A DNA stretch of 34,839 bases from Armatimonadota bacterium (GCA_031432545.1 JAVKGX010000015.1:1-34839); one strand, 5' to 3'. Positions 6,491 to 29,214 are shown, counted from the stretch's first letter. Numbers and translations: made by a program. Notes: generated by a model not told the origin, from the letters alone.

Positions 6491-8059
6491 CTAGGACGGG
6501 AACCTCCCCAGCTTCTTCCACAACTCTCGAATCGGCGCGGGATACCCTTGTCGTTCGCTCCGCCAGGCTTCAATCTGACCCAGTCGTCCCAGGCGGTCCG
6601 TCGTCTTCTGCCATTCAGCCTCAGTATCCTTCAGCGCCTGCTCAGGAGTCTTTTTGCCAGCGAAGGCCTGTTGCAGATTGAGATTTAGCTTGTCGAGATA
6701 TTCGTTGGCTCCACGGAGCGAGAGGTCAGGAAAAGCACTCTGCGCACTTTCCAGCAGGACCGGCAGGAGCTCGGCACCATAGGCCTTCCTCATTTGTTCC
6801 GCCTCGAACCATGGCTTGCGGAACGGGTCCAGGGTGCCCACACGCGCGATGGCATCAAGTCCCGTCTCAGGACCGGTAAACCACTGGACAAAGCAGTACG
6901 CCGCCTCCGGGTTCTTCCCGTAGCGAGAGATGCTGAAGCTCCAGCCAACCACGTGCGGAACAGCCCGGATGAGCTCACCGTCGTGCATGGTACCTGGCAC
7001 GGCCATGGTACCCACCTTGCCGGCGATCCTGGAGTGAGCCGGATCCTCCGCGAACTTCCCCAATGACGGCCAAGCCCACGCAAAGAACACTGCGCCCTGA
7101 GGGAACCTTGAGTAGGCGACCGTCCAGTCGCCCGTCACCGCCTCCGGCAGCATGTGGTTGCGCACCAGGCGTACTTGTTCCTCCAGGGCGGTCACGCCTT
7201 CCTCAGTGGCAATCGTGGGGTCCATGTTGTCGTTGAAGTAGGCGCCACCCTTAGAGACAAACCGCGACGCCCATGCCGTGTAGGCAAAGTAGCGCTCCGC
7301 ATACATGTGGGCCCCACGGACGCCTTGCTCGGGACGGTCGAAGAAGGCAACCCACTCGTCGAACTCCTTCCAGGTCTTGGGGACCTCCAACGGCCGCCCA
7401 TACCTGTCCTGGAAGCGCTTCTGCTCCTCGGGATTGTCCATCAGGTCCTTGCGGTAGAAGGCGCAGAACGCATCGTTGTCCGCACCTACCGCGAAGCGCC
7501 GGCCCTTGTACGTGGTAGTGAACCGGTCGAGTGGAGGAACGTAGGCGCTCGGACCATGGTCAACCTCCGGGTCATAGCGGGCGTAGAAGTCTGTCAAATC
7601 CACTATCAGTCCGGCCTCTGCCATATCGGCAATCCAGTTGACGAAGGTGAGGAAGATATCGAAGTTCCCGGTGCGCACAACCGCTTCGTGCATGGCCTTC
7701 GTGTAAATGTCCGGCTCCGCCCCGACCTCAACGCTGACGAAGTTCAGTCCCGTGAGGCGATTCCACTCCTGCAGCGCGGGGACGATATTGTTGCGCTGCC
7801 CAGAATGATGCATAACGGCGAACGTCTCCCCCTCCTTGAGCCTCCCCGCGTCCTTGAGGGCCTTGATCCCGTTGAGAGCTCGCTCCTCGGGCGTGGCACC
7901 CGCGATACGGGCGTCGGTTTGTTGCGGTGCGGGTGCCTGTGGAGTGGGGAGGCGGCAGGCCGCCACCACAGACGAAGTAAGAACCAGCCCGCCAGCGGCG
8001 ACCGCCGCCCGGATAGCCTCCCGGCGCGTCAACCTGAAGCCCTCCAGTTCGGTGCCCAT
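6491..8059 (-). CDS. ABC importer solute-binding lipoprotein (carbohydrate type)
   Basis: A 522-residue extracytoplasmic solute-binding protein. The N-terminus has a twin-arginine motif (LTRREAIRAA), a hydrophobic stretch and a lipobox VVAAC, so it is probably exported by Tat and lipid-anchored at Cys34. The body has features of family-1 solute-binding proteins, such as GNFDIFLTFVNWIADMAEAG and a late WFTGPETG segment. It is longer than most CUT1 binding proteins (about 400-450), a size seen in the GlpV-like group. The ATG at 8059 follows a GGGAGGGAGG-type site on the minus strand. The ligand is not evident; neighbours suggest a sugar acid. Confidence 0.92.
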   Translation of the reverse strand: MGTELEGFRLTRREAIRAAVAAGGLVLTSSVVAACRLPTPQAPAPQQTDARIAGATPEERALNGIKALKDAGRLKEGETFAVMHHSGQRNNIVPALQEWNRLTGLNFVSVEVGAEPDIYTKAMHEAVVRTGNFDIFLTFVNWIADMAEAGLIVDLTDFYARYDPEVDHGPSAYVPPLDRFTTTYKGRRFAVGADNDAFCAFYRKDLMDNPEEQKRFQDRYGRPLEVPKTWKEFDEWVAFFDRPEQGVRGAHMYAERYFAYTAWASRFVSKGGAYFNDNMDPTIATEEGVTALEEQVRLVRNHMLPEAVTGDWTVAYSRFPQGAVFFAWAWPSLGKFAEDPAHSRIAGKVGTMAVPGTMHDGELIRAVPHVVGWSFSISRYGKNPEAAYCFVQWFTGPETGLDAIARVGTLDPFRKPWFEAEQMRKAYGAELLPVLLESAQSAFPDLSLRGANEYLDKLNLNLQQAFAGKKTPEQALKDTEAEWQKTTDRLGRLGQIEAWRSERQGYPAPIRELWKKLGRFPS

Positions 8060-20941: not shown

Positions 20942-21016
20942 GGGGACGTAGCTCAGCGGGAGAGCACCTGCTTTGCACGCAGGGGGTCGGGGGTTCGAAT
21001 CCCCTCGTCTCCACCA
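20942..21016 (+). tRNA. tRNA-Ala (anticodon TGC)
   Basis: The cloverleaf is complete: acceptor GGGGACG pairs with CGTCTCC (one G-T), D-arm GCTC/GAGC, anticodon stem CCTGC/GCAGG around TTTGCAC, T-arm with GTTCGAAT, discriminator A and encoded CCA (21014-21016). The anticodon is TGC. Its 3' 49 bp are duplicated at 29166-29214, so this tRNA is the integration site of the island that follows. Confidence 0.97.
20968..21016 (+). repeat. Left att site (attL), 49-bp tRNA-Ala 3' repeat
   Basis: These 49 bp, from the anticodon stem to the CCA end of tRNA-Ala, recur without mismatch at 29166-29214 in the same orientation. The preceding bases (C versus T) and following bases (A versus T) differ, which fixes the repeat length. 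Tyrosine recombinases commonly use such tRNA 3' segments as att sites. Confidence 0.93.
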
Positions 21017-21951
21017 AGCCAGTCAGGACGCGGGTTTCAGCCGTTGAGCCCCTCGCGAGACCAGCCGAAAAAGCGGGGACTCACCCCCTCACTGATGCTG
21101 TCGAGGCGTTCCTGCTCACGAAGCGCGTGGCCTGATGTACTGAGGCCACGCTCCAGGTCTACACCTGGTGGCTGCGCCGGCTGCTGGTCGGGGTCGAGGT
21201 GACGGCGCTCAGTATGCGCCAGTTCCTCGTCACCCTCCAGGCCGCCTCTCTGTCCCTGAGCAGCCAGCACCAGGCGTACCGGACGCTCAAGACGTTCTTC
21301 CGGTGGTGCGTTGACGCCGGCGTGCTCGCCGAGAGCCCTCGGCGCGGATTCACCATGCGCACGCCGAAGACGCTCCCCGACGTGCCCTCCGAGGACGAAC
21401 TGCGCGCCGTGCTTGCGGCGTGCCCCGACACCCTCGAAGGGATCCGCAACCGTACCATGGTCCTGACCCTCGCCGACGCTGGCCTGCGCGCCGGCGAACT
21501 GCTGCACCTGCTGGTCGAGGACTGGCGGGCCTCCGACCGCGGCCTGTTCGTGCGCGCCGGCAAAGGCTGCAAAGACCGCGTGGCCTTCATCGGGCCGACC
21601 ACGACGCGGGCCCTGAAGGCGTGGCTGGCCCGGCATCCGTAGCCGTCACCCGAGGCGTTCCTGTTCACAGACCGGCATGGGAAACCGCTCAAGTACCGCC
21701 ACCTAGTGCAGATCCTCCACCGGCTCTCGGCCAAGGCCGGCCTGCCACCGCACCGACGGCTGCACCCTCACGCGCTCCGACACTTCGCGGCGACGGCCTG
21801 GCTTCGGGCGGGCGCGGGGTTGGACGAAGTGCGCCGGTTACTGGGGCACGAGAGCCTGAATACCACGCTGCGCTACAGCAGCCTGGTAGGAGCCGACCTG
21901 CAGCGGGCGCACCGGAAGGCTGGGGCGATTGAACGGCTGTGGCTGGAGTGA
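21017..21951 (+). pseudogene. Tyrosine recombinase body, no local start, two nonsense codons
   Basis: The frame encodes a phage-type integrase: TDAVEAFLLTKRVA, core-binding LKTFFRWCVDAG, then catalytic Arg in DAGLRAGEL, Lys in GKGCKDR, HALRHFAA (HxxR), LLGHES and the LRYS tyrosine. Two in-frame stops break it: TGA at 21133-21135 and TAG at 21640-21642. At both points the paralogous integrase at 26613-27644 aligns straight across. No usable in-frame start codon lies between the tRNA and the first conserved residue. The missing 5' end, with start codon, is found in the same frame at 29085, beyond the other att copy. Confidence 0.88.
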
Positions 21952-22145
21952 AGGCCTCTGCGCTGGCGTGGGTAGCATGGGGTCTCGGGAGGTGAGCGCG
22001 CAGTTCGGAAGAGCGAGCCTGCTCGAAAGCCCCTTCCCGCCCCGGGACGGAGGCGGACAAGCGGCCGATAATCTAGGTGAGAGGACTGGCATGCCCGGAG
22101 GAGAAGCAAAGCAGGAGCCTTTCAGTCTCCTGGAGGAGGAACCCG

Positions 22146-23102
22146 ATGGCAGAGGTTGACATCATCCACCACGCCTCGTGTGAGGACCTCTCCGCGCTGG
22201 AAGACAACTCCGTCACCCTCACGGTGACCTCGCCGCCATACTGGAACGCGATAGACTACGACATCCATGAGAGGGACCCGAACCGCTGGTACCGGACGCG
22301 GAAATACGCCTTCGGGTACAAGGAATACGACGAGTACCTGGACTGGGTCGAGCGCATCTTCGGGGGTGTCCTCGCCAAGACCCGACCTGGAGGCTACTGC
22401 GCCGTGGTCATCGGCACGGTCCTGCTGAACGGCCGCCACTACCCCGTCCCGTTCGACCTCGCCGCCCGGCTGTCCAGGTCCGGATGGGAGTTTCACCAGG
22501 ACATTGTCTGGCACAAGGTCACCGGCGGGGTGAAGCGTGCGGGCGTCACCATCCAGAAGCCCTACCCCGGCTACTTCTACCCGAACATCATGACGGAGTA
22601 CATCCTTGTCTTCCGTAGGCCCGGCAAGGCGATCTACACAGGCCGGTCCCGGTCGAGCCTGGACAGGGCCCGCATCCCCATCAACCGCGTGTTCACGATG
22701 GACGTGGCCAACACGGTCTGGCATATCGCGCCGGTTCCACCGGGCCACCTCCACCACCCCTGCCCGTTTCCCGAGGAAATCCCGTACCGGCTTATCCAGT
22801 TGTACTCGTATCCCGGCGACCTCGTGCTAGATCCGTTCGCGGGAAGCGGGCAGACGCTGAAGGTCGCCAAACACCTGGGGCGGCACTTCGTGGGTTACGA
22901 CACGGTGAAGAAGTACGTGTATTACGCCCAGCGCCGGTTGGACGAGCCGCTCGCGGTCCGGCAGAAGCAACTGATTGCCGTGTTCGATTCCGTTCCCATA
23001 GATTCGCCTCTAGCGGGGCCGGGCAGGCATGGGAAGGGCCACGGTCCGAGGAGGCGGCCGAGAGCCCGCCGCGAAGAGGAAATGCTCCTCCTGTTCACCT
23101 GA
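22146..23102 (+). CDS. DNA methyltransferase, beta-class (N4-cytosine type likely)
   Basis: A 318-residue SAM-dependent DNA methyltransferase. Catalytic motif IV TSPPYW (28-33) comes first, and SAM-binding motif I DPFAGSGQT (229-237) is near the C-terminus, the beta-class order. The form SPPYW is most common in N4-cytosine enzymes, though N6-adenine cannot be excluded. The ATG at 22146 follows GGAGGAACCCG. The gene converges on the next gene with 3 bp between stops, so the pair looks like a type II restriction-modification system carried by the island. The C-terminal tail (from about 280) is basic and poorly conserved in look. Confidence 0.9.
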   Translation: MAEVDIIHHASCEDLSALEDNSVTLTVTSPPYWNAIDYDIHERDPNRWYRTRKYAFGYKEYDEYLDWVERIFGGVLAKTRPGGYCAVVIGTVLLNGRHYPVPFDLAARLSRSGWEFHQDIVWHKVTGGVKRAGVTIQKPYPGYFYPNIMTEYILVFRRPGKAIYTGRSRSSLDRARIPINRVFTMDVANTVWHIAPVPPGHLHHPCPFPEEIPYRLIQLYSYPGDLVLDPFAGSGQTLKVAKHLGRHFVGYDTVKKYVYYAQRRLDEPLAVRQKQLIAVFDSVPIDSPLAGPGRHGKGHGPRRRPRARREEEMLLLFT

Positions 23103-23105
23103 AGG

Positions 23106-23708
23106 CTATTTGAACTTCCTCAGAGTGGGGAACCTTTCCAAGAGTTCGTGGGCCACGGCTTCGCTGGCCATTCTTGTGCGATCAAGGTTTGTCGACTTCT
23201 GGGCGATTTTGCAGCGCAAGAGGTACTCCGGTTGCCTAGCCAGGAATTCCGTAAGGTTTCGCCGCTTCAACAGCACAGCGTCGCCGCTCGACACCGTCGC
23301 GTGTGGCAGAAGTTCCGGGTCCGCGTAACCAATCCCGATGCCGGTCAGGACGAAGATGGTGGCCTCCCGCCAGCCCCCGCCGACGCCTCCGCCCAGGACG
23401 TTTATGAGCCGAATCTGGCCTGTACCCGTGAACTCGCCCTTGACGGAGAAGCCTTCCGTGCCGGGTACTGAGATGTCGATGCGCGGGTGGACCTTGCCGA
23501 CATTCGTGGCATCTATCCCGGCGGCCCGCATGGCGGCACCAATGATGCGTTCAAGGACTCCGCCGACAACGAACCTGTTTTCGTGTATGGTCGTGTTGTA
23601 CTCGGACAGCAAGACCTCGATTACGGATTCGACCTCGGAGCGCAGTACTACGTTGCGTTCCAACTCGGTCTTGAACCGGCGAAAGACAGCGCGTTCCTGG
23701 TCGTACAT
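23106..23708 (-). CDS. Probable type II restriction endonuclease
   Basis: A 200-residue protein that partners the convergent methyltransferase. The segment HPRIDISVPGTEGFSVKGE holds D78, E85 and K90 in an arrangement like PD-(D/E)xK nucleases, with Ser88 where the ExK glutamate is usual and E92 just after. The N-terminal part is helical. The frame is open to 24023, but the extra 105 residues are Arg/Pro-rich and look non-coding, so I used the ATG at 23708, which has only a weak ribosome binding site (GGGAC). I cannot assign a named enzyme or recognition site. The call rests on context and the nuclease-like motif. Confidence 0.62.
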   Translation of the reverse strand: MYDQERAVFRRFKTELERNVVLRSEVESVIEVLLSEYNTTIHENRFVVGGVLERIIGAAMRAAGIDATNVGKVHPRIDISVPGTEGFSVKGEFTGTGQIRLINVLGGGVGGGWREATIFVLTGIGIGYADPELLPHATVSSGDAVLLKRRNLTEFLARQPEYLLRCKIAQKSTNLDRTRMASEAVAHELLERFPTLRKFK

Positions 23709-24096
23709 GTCGTCCCACAGGTGCGGCTTTTGAGCATGTATTACGTCACGGAGACCCGATTGGCCTTTATCCGAGCGGGAGCCTTCCGCCACTCCGGGGT
23801 AGAGGCCGGACGGACGGGATGGGCGAGTCCGAAATAGCCTCGAACCGGGTGGACGTGGAGATTTGATGCCATCGTACTGGAAGGTAGCGCGACAAAGGCA
23901 CCGCTGAAGGCAGTGACCGGATTCCAGCCAGCAAGCGACTTGCGCAGGAAAGCGCAATGGTGGCTGACCCGAGGGTGTTAACCCGCCGACCACGCCGGCG
24001 GCAACATCAGGGCGAGCGGCCATTCACCATCCGGCGGGATGGGGACTTCCGCTCAGGGAACCTTCTTTGGGATTTTGGGAGATTTTCTTGATGATA
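23709..24096. other. Gene-free gap between nuclease gene and IS
   Basis: No convincing gene. It should contain the promoter of the nuclease gene (minus strand). The right part (24060-24096) is locally T- and A-rich (TTTTGGGAGATTTTCTTG) just before the IS inverted repeat, and may be the target site of the IS. Confidence 0.4.
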
Positions 24097-24112
24097 TGAA
24101 AGCGCTGCGCCT
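24097..24112 (+). repeat. IS left inverted repeat (IRL)
   Basis: TGAAAGCGCTGCGCCT, the exact reverse complement of 25355-25370. Its right part overlaps the left arm of a hairpin that ends at the transposase ribosome binding site. Confidence 0.9.
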
Positions 24113-24169
24113 CCAGACGGCGAATCTCTTGCTGAGCAGACAGCAAGAGCCGAAGAGAGGAGGCGCAGC
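24104..24169 (+). promoter_or_regulatory. Two-stem leader hairpin covering the transposase ribosome binding site
   Basis: The outer stem pairs GCTGCGCCTCC (24104-24114) with GGAGGCGCAGC (24159-24169), 11 bp with no mismatch. Inside it, CTCTTGCTG (24126-24134) pairs with CAGCAAGAG (24141-24149) around a 6-nt loop. The GGAGG ribosome binding site at 24159-24163 is in the right arm of the outer stem, 9 bases before the transposase ATG, so folding would hide it. Confidence 0.65.
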
Positions 24170-24172
24170 ACC

Positions 24173-25212
24173 ATGCAGTATGTCGCGTTCGATGCCCACA
24201 AACACTACACCTGGGCCCGGGTGGAGCGGCCGGAGGGCACTGTGGTAGGGGAGCAGCGGATCGCGCACGAGCGTGGGGCGCTGCGGCGGTTCCTGGCGGG
24301 CTGTGAGCCCGGCTCGCCGGTGGCCATCGAGACAGTGGGCAACTGGTACTGGATGGTCGATGAAACGGAAGCAGCGGGGTACAGGCCCCAGTTGGTGCAT
24401 GCGCACAAGGCCAAGTTGATGTTGGGGGTGGTGAACAAGACGGACCGACTGGATGCGCGCGGGATGAACCAGCTGCAGCGGACCGGGACGCTGCCCACGG
24501 TGTGGATTCCCCCAGGGGAACTGCGGGACTGGCGTGACCTCCCGCGGACGCGGATGGTGCTGGTGCGCCAGCGCACCCAGTTGAAGAATCGCATCCACGC
24601 GACGCTGGCCAAGTACGCGCTGACGGTCGGTGAGGTCGACGATCTGTTTGGAAAGCAGGGGCGCACACTGCTCCGCCAGCGGCTCGCCGAGCTGCCGCCG
24701 CAGACGGCGTTTGCGACGACGCGGGTGCTCGATCAGATTGAGACCCTCAACCACCAGGTCGACCTCTTTGAGCGGCAGATGGCGAACTCTTTGAGGTCAC
24801 CGACGAGATCAAGCTGCTGATGACGCTCCCGGGCGTGGGTTTCATCCTGGCGACCGTGATCCTCGGAGAGATCGGCGATGTGGCCCGTTTTGGGCGCAGC
24901 GAGCAGCTCGCCGCCTATGCGGGTACCACCCCGCGGGTCCACGAGTCCGGAGGCCGGCGCCGCTACGGCCCACTGCGGGCGGACGTCAATCGCTATCTCA
25001 AATGGGCGTTTGTGGAGGCGGCCAATGTGGTCTGTCTGCACCGGGGGCGGCACCCGCAGCGCCATGTCAGCCGACTCTACGACCGCATCTACAAGCGGAA
25101 GGGGCATCAGAAAGCGATCGGAGATGTGGCCCGCCACCTGGCGGAGGCGGCCTACTGGGTGCTGACCAAGCGGGAGCCGTATCGCGAGCCGGGATCGTCC
25201 ACGGAGGCGTAA
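24173..25212 (+). pseudogene. IS110-family transposase, frameshifted
   Basis: The N-terminal half (24173-24820) has the RuvC-like DEDD residues: [20 protein letters not shown] and [10 protein letters not shown]. The C-terminal half (24820-25212) has MTLPGVGFILATVI and the Ser region AYAGTTPRVHESGGRR. Near 24781 the frame shifts: continuing in the second frame through [20 protein letters not shown] restores the family sequence, consistent with loss of one base. The first frame ends TGATG, overlapping a start for the second part, so two fragments could be made, but a working transposase is unlikely. Confidence 0.88.
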
Positions 25213-25354
25213 GCGCGGGTTGCGTCTGAGCCCAGCGAGGCTCGTGACTTGATTGCGACACGCTTCCGGGACATCCTCATGCCAGCATCAGGGCGTAGAG
25301 ATGACTCCGACGAGATCGGCGAAAGTAGACGAACCGGTAACCGAGACTCTTGAC
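25213..25354 (+). ncRNA. Candidate guide (bridge/seek) RNA region of the IS
   Basis: IS110-family elements encode a guide RNA in one non-coding end; in IS1111-type elements with sub-terminal inverted repeats it lies downstream of the transposase gene. This 142-nt stretch is the larger non-coding end here (the left has 60 nt between repeat and ATG). I did not derive a confident fold, so the call rests on family knowledge and position. Confidence 0.3.
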
Positions 25355-25370
25355 AGGCGCAGCGCTTTCA
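25355..25370 (+). repeat. IS right inverted repeat (IRR)
   Basis: AGGCGCAGCGCTTTCA, the exact reverse complement of 24097-24112. Its first nine bases also occur at 24161-24169 in the transposase leader. Confidence 0.9.
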
Positions 25371-25421
25371 GAGATGACGGCGCTGCCCGCTTCCTGCCCA
25401 ACACGCCACCCTACTTTCGCC

Positions 25422-26606
25422 CTACTCCGGCCGCACCCGACCGAGTTCGCCCGCGCCAGGCAGGAACAGGCTGATGCCACGATGCTTGCCGACGAAGCGA
25501 ATTGTGCCGGCAGCCAGCAGCGTACAAACCAGCGCCCCAGCGGCACGTTCGTCGATGCGACACCAGGCAGAGACGAAGCGCCATGACAGCGGCACAGGCT
25601 TGCCCGGTTCGCGCAGCCAGTGGATGCCGAAGAGCAGCCGCACCATCTCAGACACAGGTGCGCCTACGCTGGCGGGGAATCGCAGCGGCACCACGGGTGG
25701 CCGAAGCAGACCGAGTTCGACCTGCAGCCTCGCCGCCCAGACGGCATGACTGGTGCCCGGGAGTTTCAAGGTGCGGCCGGCGCGAATGGAAGCGAAGACC
25801 TCGGGCACGGTGTAGACAGGCGGCCGGCCGGAGCCACCGTGCGCCTCTTCGCCGTCGCGTCGATGGAAGTCAACCAGCACGATGACGCCGTTCTCCCCGG
25901 CCCACCACGCCGCGGAAGCCCGGCGCTCCTCGTGCCCGGGCAGCGGGCACCTGAACCCTCGACCGAGTTCATCAGGCAACCCGAGGAGCCGCGCCGCCGC
26001 CGGCCAGACCCCTCCGACTGGACACCCTCCCAGTTCTTCACTACCTGAAAGACGAGGTGCAGCAAGATATGCATATGCATACCTTGCTGCAGTGGTCGTG
26101 GTGTTGACGTTGTGGAGTGTGTCTCTGGTGGCGGCAACACGGTCAAGCCACGCACGCGGCAAATCGGTCAGGTGGTCAAGGTCGAGCAACCAGTGCCGGC
26201 CAGCGCTCCGCGGTACCACGAGGAGGCCGGAGCCGAGGAATTCCAGGTCTGGCAACATCGCAGTCCTCGGCAGGGGTCCGGTCGTTCGGTAGAGCAGGTG
26301 GTGCCCTCGCCGCGCCTCGAAGGCGGCTGTTGGCGGCAGCGGGAGCCGCTCGGCTCGAACCGAGGCCACAGCAGCCGGGCCGTCGTGGTCCAAGTCGCCC
26401 AGCGAGAGACCAGGCCCACCGAGAATGACAGCGATATCGCCATCCGGGTACTCGCGTGCAAGTTCGCCGACCTCCGCGGCGGTCTGCCGTTCGTGCTGCC
26501 ACCGGCTCCAGGCCACGGCCGACCGCTTCGTGCCGGGCACCACGGGCACAATGTTCAGGCCGTGCGCGTGGTAGGCCGGGGCATCGCTGGCGAACGCGCC
26601 GCTCAT
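25422..26606 (-). CDS. Primase-polymerase (prim-pol) replication protein
   Basis: A 394-residue protein with an N-terminal bifunctional primase/polymerase domain: AYHAHGLNIVPVVPGTKRSAV at the start, the acidic GDLDHDGP at about residues 69-76, and FEARRGHHLLYRTTG (catalytic His region). The middle has a Cys/His cluster (GFRCPLPGHEERRASAAWW) like the zinc or CHC-type segment of primases. The C-terminus is a probable helical winged-helix region. No helicase domain follows. It starts 6 nt after the integrase stop, so the two form an operon. It is the element's likely replication initiator. A 34-bp palindrome lies within the gene. Confidence 0.82.
   Translation of the reverse strand: MSGAFASDAPAYHAHGLNIVPVVPGTKRSAVAWSRWQHERQTAAEVGELAREYPDGDIAVILGGPGLSLGDLDHDGPAAVASVRAERLPLPPTAAFEARRGHHLLYRTTGPLPRTAMLPDLEFLGSGLLVVPRSAGRHWLLDLDHLTDLPRAWLDRVAATRDTLHNVNTTTTAARYAYAYLAAPRLSGSEELGGCPVGGVWPAAARLLGLPDELGRGFRCPLPGHEERRASAAWWAGENGVIVLVDFHRRDGEEAHGGSGRPPVYTVPEVFASIRAGRTLKLPGTSHAVWAARLQVELGLLRPPVVPLRFPASVGAPVSEMVRLLFGIHWLREPGKPVPLSWRFVSAWCRIDERAAGALVCTLLAAGTIRFVGKHRGISLFLPGAGELGRVRPE
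26058..26091. repeat. 34-bp near-perfect palindrome inside the prim-pol gene
   Basis: TGCAGCAAG (26058-26066) and CTTGCTGCA (26083-26091) enclose the self-complementary TATGCATATGCATA (26068-26081). Only the pair at 26067/26082 (A and C) does not match. The core is AT-only apart from two GC steps, in a very GC-rich gene. It encodes AARYAYAYLAA at the junction between the prim-pol domain and the zinc segment. It could be a replication origin, an operator or a protein-binding site. Confidence 0.8.
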
Positions 26607-26612
26607 CGGCGC

Positions 26613-27644
26613 TCACCGCGCGGCCCGCAGGTGATCCATCGGGGAGGCGGTCGCGAACTTCGCGGCCAGGTCAGCCTGCGAAACCGCCACATATCGCAGG
26701 GCCATGATCAACGTCTCGTGGCGCAGAACGCGGCGGACGAGTTCCAAATCACCGCTACGCCGCCAAATGGCCGTGGCAGCGTAGTGCCGTAGCGCGTGCG
26801 GCCCGATGAGGCGGTCCAGCCCGGCGCGCCGGCTGAGCCGATGCAGGATGCGGCGGATGGCGTAGGGCCCCAGCGGCGACCCGTCGCGGGTGACGAACAG
26901 GAACGCTGCGGGCCTCGGGTCGGGATGGACGGCTAGCCAGGTCCGCAGCAGCGATGAGGTGGCCTCGCCGAAGAAGGCCAAGCCGTCCTTCTGGCCCTTG
27001 CCGGCGTGGACGTGAATCGTGCGGGCGGTGAAGTCGAGGGCCCCGATGCGAAGCCGGCGGGCCTCCTCCTTGCGCAGTCCGCTGTCGGCGAGCAGGGCAA
27101 TCAGCGCGCGGTTGCGGCGGCCTTCGGGGGTGGACGGGCAGGCGGCCAGCAGCCTGCGGACGTGCCCATCCTCGGGCACACGCGGCAAGGTCTTGGGGAG
27201 GCGCATCGTCATCCCCGCCATCGAGTCGGCGGGCAGGCGGCCGGTGCGGACGCACCAACGGAGGAATGTTCGCAACGTTCGGAAGTGTTGATGCACCGAC
27301 ACCGCGCGCATCCGCTCGCGCAGGCCGGTGAGGTAGCGCTGGATGACGGAAGGCGTGCAGTCAGCGAGCCCGCCTCCGCCGACCGCCCGGACGAACCGCC
27401 AAAGGTTGGCGGCGTAGATATCCACCGTGCGAGCCGTGCAGTTTCCGACGCGCCGGCTGAGCAGGAACCCCTCGACAGCGTCGGAGAGGGTGGCGGGCGA
27501 ATCCTCTGGCGGTACCAGTGCCGAGGAGGCGGGAGCAACACCAGCAGGCCGGCCCAACTCCTCCGAATGCTGCCTCGGGTTCCTCCGTCTCACCAGGCGG
27601 CCGACGACGGCCGTTTCCGAAGGGGCAGGCAGGCTGGGAGGCAT
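26613..27644 (-). CDS. Tyrosine recombinase/integrase (apparently intact)
   Basis: A 343-residue phage-type integrase. The core-binding domain starts at about residue 53 (LSDAVEGFLLSRRV). Catalytic residues seen are R191 (DSGLRKEEA), K219 (GKGQKDG), H283-R286 (HALRH), H309 (LRHET) and Y318 (ALRYVA). It is a paralogue of the decayed integrase at the left end, sharing MTMRLPKTLP-like and ILHRLS-AGL stretches. The first 52 residues are low in conservation and overlap another frame (27361-28047), so a later start is possible. It may be the recombinase that could still mobilise the island. Confidence 0.88.
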   Translation of the reverse strand: MPPSLPAPSETAVVGRLVRRRNPRQHSEELGRPAGVAPASSALVPPEDSPATLSDAVEGFLLSRRVGNCTARTVDIYAANLWRFVRAVGGGGLADCTPSVIQRYLTGLRERMRAVSVHQHFRTLRTFLRWCVRTGRLPADSMAGMTMRLPKTLPRVPEDGHVRRLLAACPSTPEGRRNRALIALLADSGLRKEEARRLRIGALDFTARTIHVHAGKGQKDGLAFFGEATSSLLRTWLAVHPDPRPAAFLFVTRDGSPLGPYAIRRILHRLSRRAGLDRLIGPHALRHYAATAIWRRSGDLELVRRVLRHETLIMALRYVAVSQADLAAKFATASPMDHLRAAR

Positions 27645-28047
27645 CAGGATACCCCCTTGGCCTCTGACCCCTCAGCAGGATTGCGATTGGGCCTCGTGCA
27701 CCGTTTCGGCCATTCCTGAAGGCGTCCCGGAGTCTCGCACGGCGGGCCTGCTCCTTGGCCGTGACTCGGCGTGGACCCGCGAACCGAACCGCCTCAAGGG
27801 GCAGGCTGAACTGATACCCGCACCCGACGCGCCCGACCTGTGCACCCCACGCCTGGGCGACGCGCAGCAGCCGGCGGGTCAACCGGGCTGAGTCTGTGTG
27901 AACGCACCAGTCGTCTTCGTCATCGGCGATGGTCAGCACGATCTCTCGCTCGGAAGCGGTCAGGGTGCGGCCAGGGGAAGATAGAGGGTTGCCCTTCGGC
28001 TGGCGGTGCCCGACAATGCCAGTGGCGGTGGACGTGGACTGAGCCAT
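27361..28047 (-). CDS. Hypothetical island protein; C-terminal part probably spurious
   Basis: The ATG at 28047 has a GGGGTGAACG site upstream. Residues 1 to about 125 look real: TASEREIVLTIADDEDDWCVHTDSARLTRRLLRVAQAWG followed by GYQFSLPLEAVRF and a basic KEQARRARLRDAF helix, a pattern I associate with uncharacterised phage and actinobacterial island proteins. The last 95 codons overlap the integrase gene in another frame and are Arg/Pro/Gly-rich, so either a frameshift has fused frames or the native protein ends close to 27640. Function unknown. Confidence 0.5.
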   Translation of the reverse strand: MAQSTSTATGIVGHRQPKGNPLSSPGRTLTASEREIVLTIADDEDDWCVHTDSARLTRRLLRVAQAWGAQVGRVGCGYQFSLPLEAVRFAGPRRVTAKEQARRARLRDAFRNGRNGARGPIAILLRGQRPRGYPDASQPACPFGNGRRRPPGETEEPEAAFGGVGPACWCCSRLLGTGTARGFARHPLRRCRGVPAQPARRKLHGSHGGYLRRQPLAVRPGGRRRRAR

Positions 28048-28110
28048 CTGCGTTCACCCCGGTGAGCACCGGCTGGGAGATGTGGCGACCCGCAGCCGGT
28101 GCTCGGCTTT

Positions 28111-28314
28111 CTAGCCCCGCTGCGGACCCTTCGCAACGTGCTGCCGCTCGCGCCGACGGATGAGCGCCACGAGCGCGGTCTCGGGAATGAGCCGACGGTC
28201 CGTCGCATCCCGCAGGTGCTTCAACTGCCCGGAGCGGCATAGCGCCCGCACCCGCTCGGAGGAGAGCGAAAGCCGTCGCGCGGCGAGGCCGACGGAGAGC
28301 AACGCGTCTTTCAT
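28111..28314 (-). CDS. Excisionase/MerR-like small HTH protein
   Basis: A 67-residue protein with a helix-turn-helix fold: LLSVGLAARRLSLSSERVRALCRSGQLKHLRDATDRRLIPETALVALI. This is the AlpA/excisionase-family pattern of a winged HTH that binds att or promoter DNA. A GAGGTGG site is placed 5 nt before the ATG at 28314; the GTG nine bases upstream overlaps that site and is less likely. It is divergent from the zinc-ribbon gene. In an integrative element it would direct excision or control the integrase operon. Confidence 0.78.
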   Translation of the reverse strand: MKDALLSVGLAARRLSLSSERVRALCRSGQLKHLRDATDRRLIPETALVALIRRRERQHVAKGPQRG

Positions 28315-28438
28315 CGTAACCACCTCACGTTTGAGTCTGGTTCGATTCTCTCTCCACGCCCCCGCCGCGATAACTGCGGACTCTCAAGCGCCCGGTAGCG
28401 CAAGGATTCTGCCTCCTGTCCCCTGAACATGAGGGGCG

Positions 28439-29161
28439 ATGGTTCAGGAGGCGGCCCGCAAACAGCCGCGCAGAGTAAAGAAGCCCAGGGTCACGCGCAG
28501 GGCGCTTGAGCCGTTCTGGCTGACGCGCCCCGAGGCCGAAGCGAAGCGGCTTCGACGGAGAGGCAAGACGGTGCGGGAAATCGCCGCAGCCATCATCGCC
28601 CGCTTCGACGGGGTGAAGGGGGCGCGTCTCACGGACCGGGAGAAGTGGCAGGTGGACTCCCTGCGCACACTTGAAGAGCCGCGGGTTCACCGGACTATCC
28701 GTGAGTGGCTCGCCAAAGGGAAACTGCGGCGGGGCGAGCCGAAGCGCTCGCCGCCCGCGGTGCCCGTCTGGGTGGACCAAGTGCGATGCGCGGCCTGCGG
28801 TCGGCCGGAGGCCGTGCTACGAAAGGTCCTCACCCGGCGCGACTTGCACGGACGCGAGCAGGAAGAATGGGCAGCGCGGTTGTTGCCCCTCCTGCCGTCG
28901 GGCGAGGAAGGCTTCGGTTACTGCCGGACCTGCAAGCGCCACCGACGCTTTCGCGTCGAGGAGAGTCGGCGCATATCAGACGCCGAGGTCAAAGCCCTGG
29001 TCACCAACTGGGCAAAACAGCCGCGGCTGGCGCGCTCAAGGTTCCTCCTGGCCTGGCTGGGAGTGACCCAAGGAGGTGGACGCGATGGAACAGGCCACAG
29101 AAAAGCAGGGGCTCACCCCTCTAGAACCCGCATCAGGACTGGGTTTCATCGGTCGGGATGA
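28439..29161 (+). CDS. Zinc-ribbon protein of unknown function at the right end of the island
   Basis: A 240-residue basic protein with ATG at 28439 preceded by GAGGGG. The N-terminal third has an HTH-like helix pair (EAEAKRLRRRGKTVREIAAAIIARF). Two CxxC pairs follow, VRCAACGRPE and GYCRTCKRH, spaced as a possible zinc ribbon. The last 25 codons overlap the start of the displaced integrase frame (29085) and look less protein-like. It ends 4 bp before attR. No family recognised; it may be a regulator or DNA-binding protein of the element. Confidence 0.65.
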   Translation: MVQEAARKQPRRVKKPRVTRRALEPFWLTRPEAEAKRLRRRGKTVREIAAAIIARFDGVKGARLTDREKWQVDSLRTLEEPRVHRTIREWLAKGKLRRGEPKRSPPAVPVWVDQVRCAACGRPEAVLRKVLTRRDLHGREQEEWAARLLPLLPSGEEGFGYCRTCKRHRRFRVEESRRISDAEVKALVTNWAKQPRLARSRFLLAWLGVTQGGGRDGTGHRKAGAHPSRTRIRTGFHRSG

Positions 29162-29214
29162 GCCTCTGCTTTGCACGCAGGGGGTCGGGGGTTCGAATCC
29201 CCTCGTCTCCACCA
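29085..29214 (+). pseudogene. Displaced 5' part of the split integrase gene
   Basis: ATG at 29085 is preceded by AAGGAGG (29070-29076) at an 8-nt spacing. Its 27 codons lead into the 49-bp repeat exactly at a codon boundary and read through it in the same frame (LLCTQGVGGSNPLVST) as the integrase body uses on the left side. Joining 29085-29214 to 21017-21951, as in the excised circle, gives 1065 nt, exactly 355 codons. In the integrated state this start leads only into chromosomal sequence and stops at 29423. Confidence 0.8.
29166..29214 (+). repeat. Right att site (attR), 49-bp tRNA-Ala repeat
   Basis: An exact copy of 20968-21016, lacking the 5' half of the tRNA, so it is not a functional tRNA gene. 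It marks the right end of the island. Confidence 0.93.

Follow-up and report, generated by a model that had tools for sequence, protein, structure and literature searches.

An integrase gene apparently split near its 5' end by its own attachment site in a tRNA-Ala island of an Armatimonadota bacterium

The window, by which we mean the whole stretch of DNA that was analysed, is an entire contig (C15, 34.8 kb) of a 2.19-Mb Armatimonadota genome. It carries an island whose tyrosine integrase, in the reading which we consider highly probable, has attP inside its 5' coding sequence, with integration disconnecting the start and excision restoring the gene. The case is built on anatomy: no local start is found behind the tRNA gene, a start at the far end of the island matches the integrase frame, the layout recurs at different tRNA genes, and two relatives give intact genes when their paired ends are joined.

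The island and its integrase gene

A direct repeat of 55 nt (96% identity; 20962-21016 and 29160-29214), containing an exact block of 49 nt, represents the 3' part of a tRNA-Ala gene and encloses an island of 8.2 kb. These borders, together with an integrase gene adjoining attL directly after the tRNA, are those of an integrative island of the tRNA-gene type. The features discussed below are as follows.

20942-21016, + strand: tRNA-Ala(tgc), target gene and attL, found by ARAGORN; its orthologue in relatives lies beside the same upstream gene
20968-21016, + strand: attL core of 49 nt, identical to 29166-29214 and also read in the integrase frame (LLCTQGVGGSNPLVST)
21017-21951, + strand: body of the split integrase, with start-less spacer, SAM-like domain (PF13495) and catalytic domain (PF00589)
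21023-21042, + strand: left arm box A (TCAGGACGCGGGTTTCAGCC), repeated directly, in a different reading frame, as right arm box A
21070-21086, + strand: left arm box B (AAAGCGGGGACTCACCC), 54 nt past CCA, repeating the tRNA core half-site in inverted orientation
26613-27644, - strand: second tyrosine recombinase of the island (343 aa), intact and provided with a local start; identity to the split integrase 45%
29070-29076, + strand: Shine-Dalgarno sequence AAGGAGG of the distant start
29085-29165, + strand: right-end 5' coding segment of the integrase (MEQATEKQGLTPLEPASGLGFIGRDEP), which runs without a stop into the core in the integrase frame and is homologous to the right arm in genome G010
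29102-29118, + strand: right arm box B (AAAGCAGGGGCTCACCC), exact pattern match
29133-29150, + strand: right arm box A (TCAGGACTGGGTTTCATC), from the sequence and the alignment of the window and G010 arms
29166-29214, + strand: attR core, from its repeat match to the attL core

Besides the integrase body the island encodes an N4/N6 DNA methylase, an IS110-type transposase, a Prim-Pol protein and the second tyrosine recombinase. The transposase (24173-25212, + strand) is split into two ORFs, carrying DEDD_Tnp_IS110 and Transposase_20, respectively. The gene upstream of tRNA-Ala(tgc) is the same in the host relatives G003, G004 and G005, and in contig-edge copies in G001 and G002; among the integrase matches listed for G001 to G005 none lies at the orthologous tRNA-Ala site. 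Since the window's downstream flank has no match at these orthologous sites, the right border of the island is defined by the repeat only.

The left integrase frame (20968-21951) is open from inside the tRNA gene except for TGA at 21133-21135 and TAG at 21640-21642. Translated with X at the stops, the body matches PF00589 (8e-31) and PF13495 (5e-7), the same two families as the relatives L044 and L050; a catalytic domain combined with a SAM-like core-binding domain identifies it as a tyrosine recombinase/integrase. A first-pass annotation of this DNA had described the gene as lacking a start codon, and indeed ATG, GTG and TTG are absent from the tRNA, from the spacer, and back to the preceding in-frame stop, as are the near-cognate codons CTG, ATT, ATC and ATA from the spacer ahead of the SAM-like domain. 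With the PF13495 match starting at the end of the spacer, what the body lacks is a leader rather than a domain. The two nonsense codons, which had also been recorded correctly, interrupt the gene, and on this evidence the window copy is a fossil and not itself functional. Recoding of the stops was judged unlikely, since the two differ (TGA and TAG) and sense codons stand at these positions in the closest relatives.

At the opposite end of the island the ATG at 29085 enters the repeat in the frame of the left integrase. Joining 29085-29214 to 21017-21951 yields 1065 nt, or 355 codons including the stop, as had been calculated before; every position given earlier holds. In dinucleotide shuffles, which handle the arms as random DNA, a Shine-Dalgarno sequence and start equally good, in frame and open to the core occurred in 0.15% of the shuffled right arms (P = 0.0015). 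Integration had been said to remove promoter, ribosome binding site (RBS) and about 43 codons; the loss of RBS, start and leader stands, while removal of a promoter is at most possible. No sigma-70-type promoter was detected upstream of the right-end start, a result that speaks against the split reading.

We propose that in the excised circle the RBS and start (29070-29087), the leader, the tRNA-derived core and the spacer would lie in one frame leading into the SAM-like and catalytic domains, 355 codons in all. Recombination with the tRNA-Ala gene would then strand RBS and start, with about 43 codons, at the right end. The domains would follow the tRNA without a start that could be used, and the integrated copy could therefore not be translated as an enzyme. 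Excision would rejoin start and body. From this layout we infer translation of the leader, silence of the integrated gene, and the need for another source of the excision enzyme, whether leftover enzyme, a related complete element, or a second integrase acting in trans. The second recombinase of the island, which belongs to the other main group of the family and has its nearest relative (L053) in G029, is a candidate for such a trans-acting integrase.

Relatives at other tRNA genes

The relatives were gathered from 43 genomes of the phylum and are not independent of each other. Eighteen left ends lie directly 3' of tRNA genes (Ala-tgc; Arg-ccg, -tct, -cct and -gcg; Gly-ccc; Pro-ggg and -tgg; Ile-gat), and 12 of them, the window included, are start-less, with spacers of 10-29 codons that contain no stop and no ATG or GTG (one, L057, has a TTG). 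These 12 occupy tRNA-Ala, tRNA-Arg (ccg, tct, cct, gcg), tRNA-Gly and tRNA-Pro genes and make use of all three tRNA frames. A local start just after the tRNA had been named in the first-pass annotation as an observation that would count against the split. It occurs, as an ATG, in a minority of relatives: in L047, L153 and L048 (whose tRNA is off the contig) and probably in L052 and L060; the spacer, measurable in four of them, spans 37-64 codons. It is missing from the closest relatives of the window integrase, L044, L045 and L046; in L044 the earliest in-frame start is 33 codons inside the SAM domain. Of the other left ends L058 is ambiguous and L147 decayed.

In the protein tree start-less and local-start forms are both present on either side of a branch with 100/100 support, and the distribution of the two labels needs 3-5 changes, a count whose details are uncertain as several rows are short. 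The N-terminal split in this tRNA-Ala island is no isolated curiosity; the comparison supports the split layout as a common architecture of one integrase family in the phylum, at several kinds of tRNA gene, which seems to alternate with the local-start form. Since the local-start sisters have few residues before the domain, we argue against an enzymatic role of the leader and see the split as probably regulatory; the same sisters suggest that the enzyme can dispense with the leader. A scan of the genome contigs with the family alignment found a single relative, and searches of IMG/VR, plasmids and phages gave no close relative and hence no sequenced circular form. Directly behind the integrase gene of L044 (G023, oriented 6660-6684) there is a tRNA-Arg-like 3' fragment followed by a box-A-like sequence, possibly the remnant of nested or tandem islands.

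Five right ends match left ends of the same genome by an exact att sequence of 49-64 nt: those of the window, G003, G010, G018 and G021. The G003 pair bounds a 6.7-kb element on one contig; the pairs in G010 (L045 and L095), G018 (L054 and L190) and G021 (L058 and L191) were made across contigs. An in-frame start is present in all five, with Shine-Dalgarno matches ranging from strong to weak. The shuffle P values are 0.0015 for the window, 0.0385 for G003, 0.0175 for G010, 0.32 for G018 and 0.067 for G021, the RBS support being weak in the last two. In G018 the two remaining frames have no RBS-start of any kind; in G021 a TTG with an equally good RBS exists in another frame, and the left gene also has a local GTG and ATG in frame. 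Intact relatives of the joined frame, for which a search had been proposed, do exist: the genes joined from the two ends are uninterrupted in G003 (348 aa) and G010 (355 aa).

Although the window element targets tRNA-Ala and that of G010 tRNA-Arg, their right arms share 69% identity across 78 bp. This removes a second possible objection, that 29085-29165 might have no homology to any integrase N-terminus, because the matching stretch begins at the RBS, takes in the start and reaches box A. For the local-start element L048 the right end is L098, where none of the frames contains an RBS-start; on the split reading this is the negative control to be expected. With 12 start-less integrases, five att-matched right ends bearing an in-frame start, and the lack of an RBS-start at the right end of one local-start relative, placement of the start beyond attR in related islands is borne out.

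Three unpaired right ends (L096, L112 and L113) show the identical order of RBS, start, box B and core. At L112 (G021, contig C58, near 19984) right arm, tRNA-Ala core and left arm occur together, with start and spacer in one frame; its integrase is frameshifted, which rules it out as an intact joined junction, and it may represent an attP-like or tandem-island scar. L103, L114 and L197 were rejected as right ends of L050 and L145, the core not being theirs or the arms being absent, and among the 43 genomes no right ends were found for L044, L051, L057 and L059.

Of the competing explanations the one that fares best, while still improbable, is that the integrated gene is translated from a non-canonical or distant start (a near-cognate codon, GTG or TTG within the tRNA, or read-through from upstream) and that the right-end ATG is incidental. 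Near-cognate ATC, ATT, ATA or CTG codons do occur in the spacers of L050, L051, L056, L057, L059 and L145, and the tRNA contributes an in-frame GTG or TTG in L045, L050, L054, L057 and L059. The spacers of the window, L044, L045, L046, L054 and L148 have no near-cognate start, however, and in the window, L044 and L046 the tRNA offers no ATG, GTG or TTG either. An incidental ATG also sits poorly with the recurrence of an in-frame RBS-start at the far end of the paired elements and with its lack in the local-start sister L048.

Chance agreement of the frames appears still less probable, to the point that we give it little weight. It would hold that tRNA genes and GC-rich flanks commonly lack stops in every frame and that the RBS-like site belongs to another gene. 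Frames through tRNA genes are in fact often open, the probability that a single spacer lacks a stop being 0.2-0.9, and a putative ORF at 28439-29161 overlaps the right-end start region. That ORF has no relative in the phylum, which also made it useless as a probe for further right ends, and against coincidence are the in-frame starts at five of five paired ends, the three best shuffle values (P = 0.0015, 0.0385 and 0.0175), the homology of the RBS-start module between families, and the repeated order of RBS, start, box B and core at L096, L112 and L113. Least credible of all is decay by itself, in which recombination in a dead island removed the N-terminus of the left gene: the window copy has its two nonsense codons, and L051, L056, L057 and L148 are truncated or frameshifted, but the undisrupted bodies of L044, L045, L046 and L050 miss the start likewise, the SAM-like domain was found in all three bodies tested (window, L044 and L050), and G003 and G010 join to unbroken genes.

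Comparison with known integrases

Ordinary bacterial tRNA islands keep the RBS and start on the integrase side. The present island resembles them in its tRNA 3'-end target, its direct-repeat att sites and an integrase gene adjoining the tRNA, and differs in having RBS and start beyond attR.

A 2021 review (Badel et al., PMC8371274) describes integrases which disrupt their own gene as exclusively archaeal. In these suicidal (type I, SSV-type) integrases, such as those of SSV1, pTN3 and pT26-2, attP lies in the integrase ORF and the att sites, 40-50 bp long, are often in tRNA genes (PMC8371274). As in the SSV type, an N-terminal coding piece is parted here from the body with the catalytic domain upon integration (PMC8371274), and at the sequence level, with att inside the integrase frame and the start separated, the window gene is a suicidal, or self-splitting, integrase by architecture. 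It is not a member of the archaeal family (superfamily 25_02): PF16795 (Phage_integr_3), which marks the SSV type, gave no match, and a bacterial host is combined with PF13495 and PF00589. The separated piece is, moreover, a short and poorly conserved leader with RBS and start, and local-start sister enzymes exist. Membership thus fails on domain and host, and the architecture would work like the archaeal one.

Bacterial cases with att inside the integrase gene that we found in print affect the 3' end and retain the start. Myxococcus phage Mx8 has a tyrosine integrase with attP within the coding sequence; upon integration 13 residues take the place of the C-terminal 112, with partial activity remaining (PMC6070905, PMC4701971). 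Whereas Mx8 exchanges the 3' end of int, the 5' end with the start is lost here, att being at the 5' end and the C-terminus unaffected. In the streptococcal rumA ICEs att lies within a serine integrase gene, and the integrated and excised forms differ (PMC4701971); there the C-terminus changes and the start is kept, in contrast to a tyrosine integrase which loses its start. No printed case of a bacterial 5' split was found in the open-access literature, which is no proof of priority.

If the proposed split is real, bacteria also have a 5' version of the self-splitting integrase, for which the local-start sisters provide natural controls, and expression would be tied to the circular state with no repressor. 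It would also make testable how such elements exit the chromosome and how the gene stays open during swaps of the att core between tRNAs.

Arm-like boxes in the coding region and other duplicated ends

The window core is flanked by boxes in direct orientation, in the order B-A-core-A-B, box A reading TCAGGAC..GGGTTTCA and box B being AAAGCAGNNGCTCACCC-like. A sequence similar to box A follows the tRNA in most relatives; its reading frame differs between the two sides and among relatives, and the boxes are kept even in a non-coding stretch (L047). Box B repeats the 5' half of the tRNA anticodon arm in inverted orientation, and in 16 of the 18 left ends it lies 52-54 nt after CCA. In 13 of 18 no other tRNA fits the box better than its own, single matches often not being significant alone, and the box tends to vary with the targeted tRNA, as though arm sites were copied from the target.

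The boxes are best read as putative integrase-binding sites that follow the target tRNA, and the N-terminal leader would therefore be constrained as DNA. The leader peptide shows little conservation past its first residues, and the integrase frame appears to be held open by compensating changes in length. The placement of attP in the 5' coding part, as first described, stands, with a wider extent: the coding region would overlap not the core alone but the whole presumed attP, arm-like boxes included.

A broader scenario strikes us as slightly better than an even bet. It would have self-silencing integrases arise in a bacterial lineage independently of archaea, with all of attP and the arm-like boxes coding, each new tRNA target requiring the frame to be fitted again, and split and local-start forms interconverting; integration would be one-way unless a complete enzyme, for example the second integrase, acts in trans.

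Duplicated RNA gene ends were also seen elsewhere. At L104 (G038, contig C31, at 861, 13940 and 19292) three 3' fragments of tRNA-Ala share one orientation, and a box-A-like sequence follows two of them, which suggests an island array. The 3' ends of the tmRNA gene (ssrA) are duplicated in several genomes (L102, L105, L106, L108, L109 and L114), probably as islands at ssrA, and some of these are accompanied by similar arm-like boxes.
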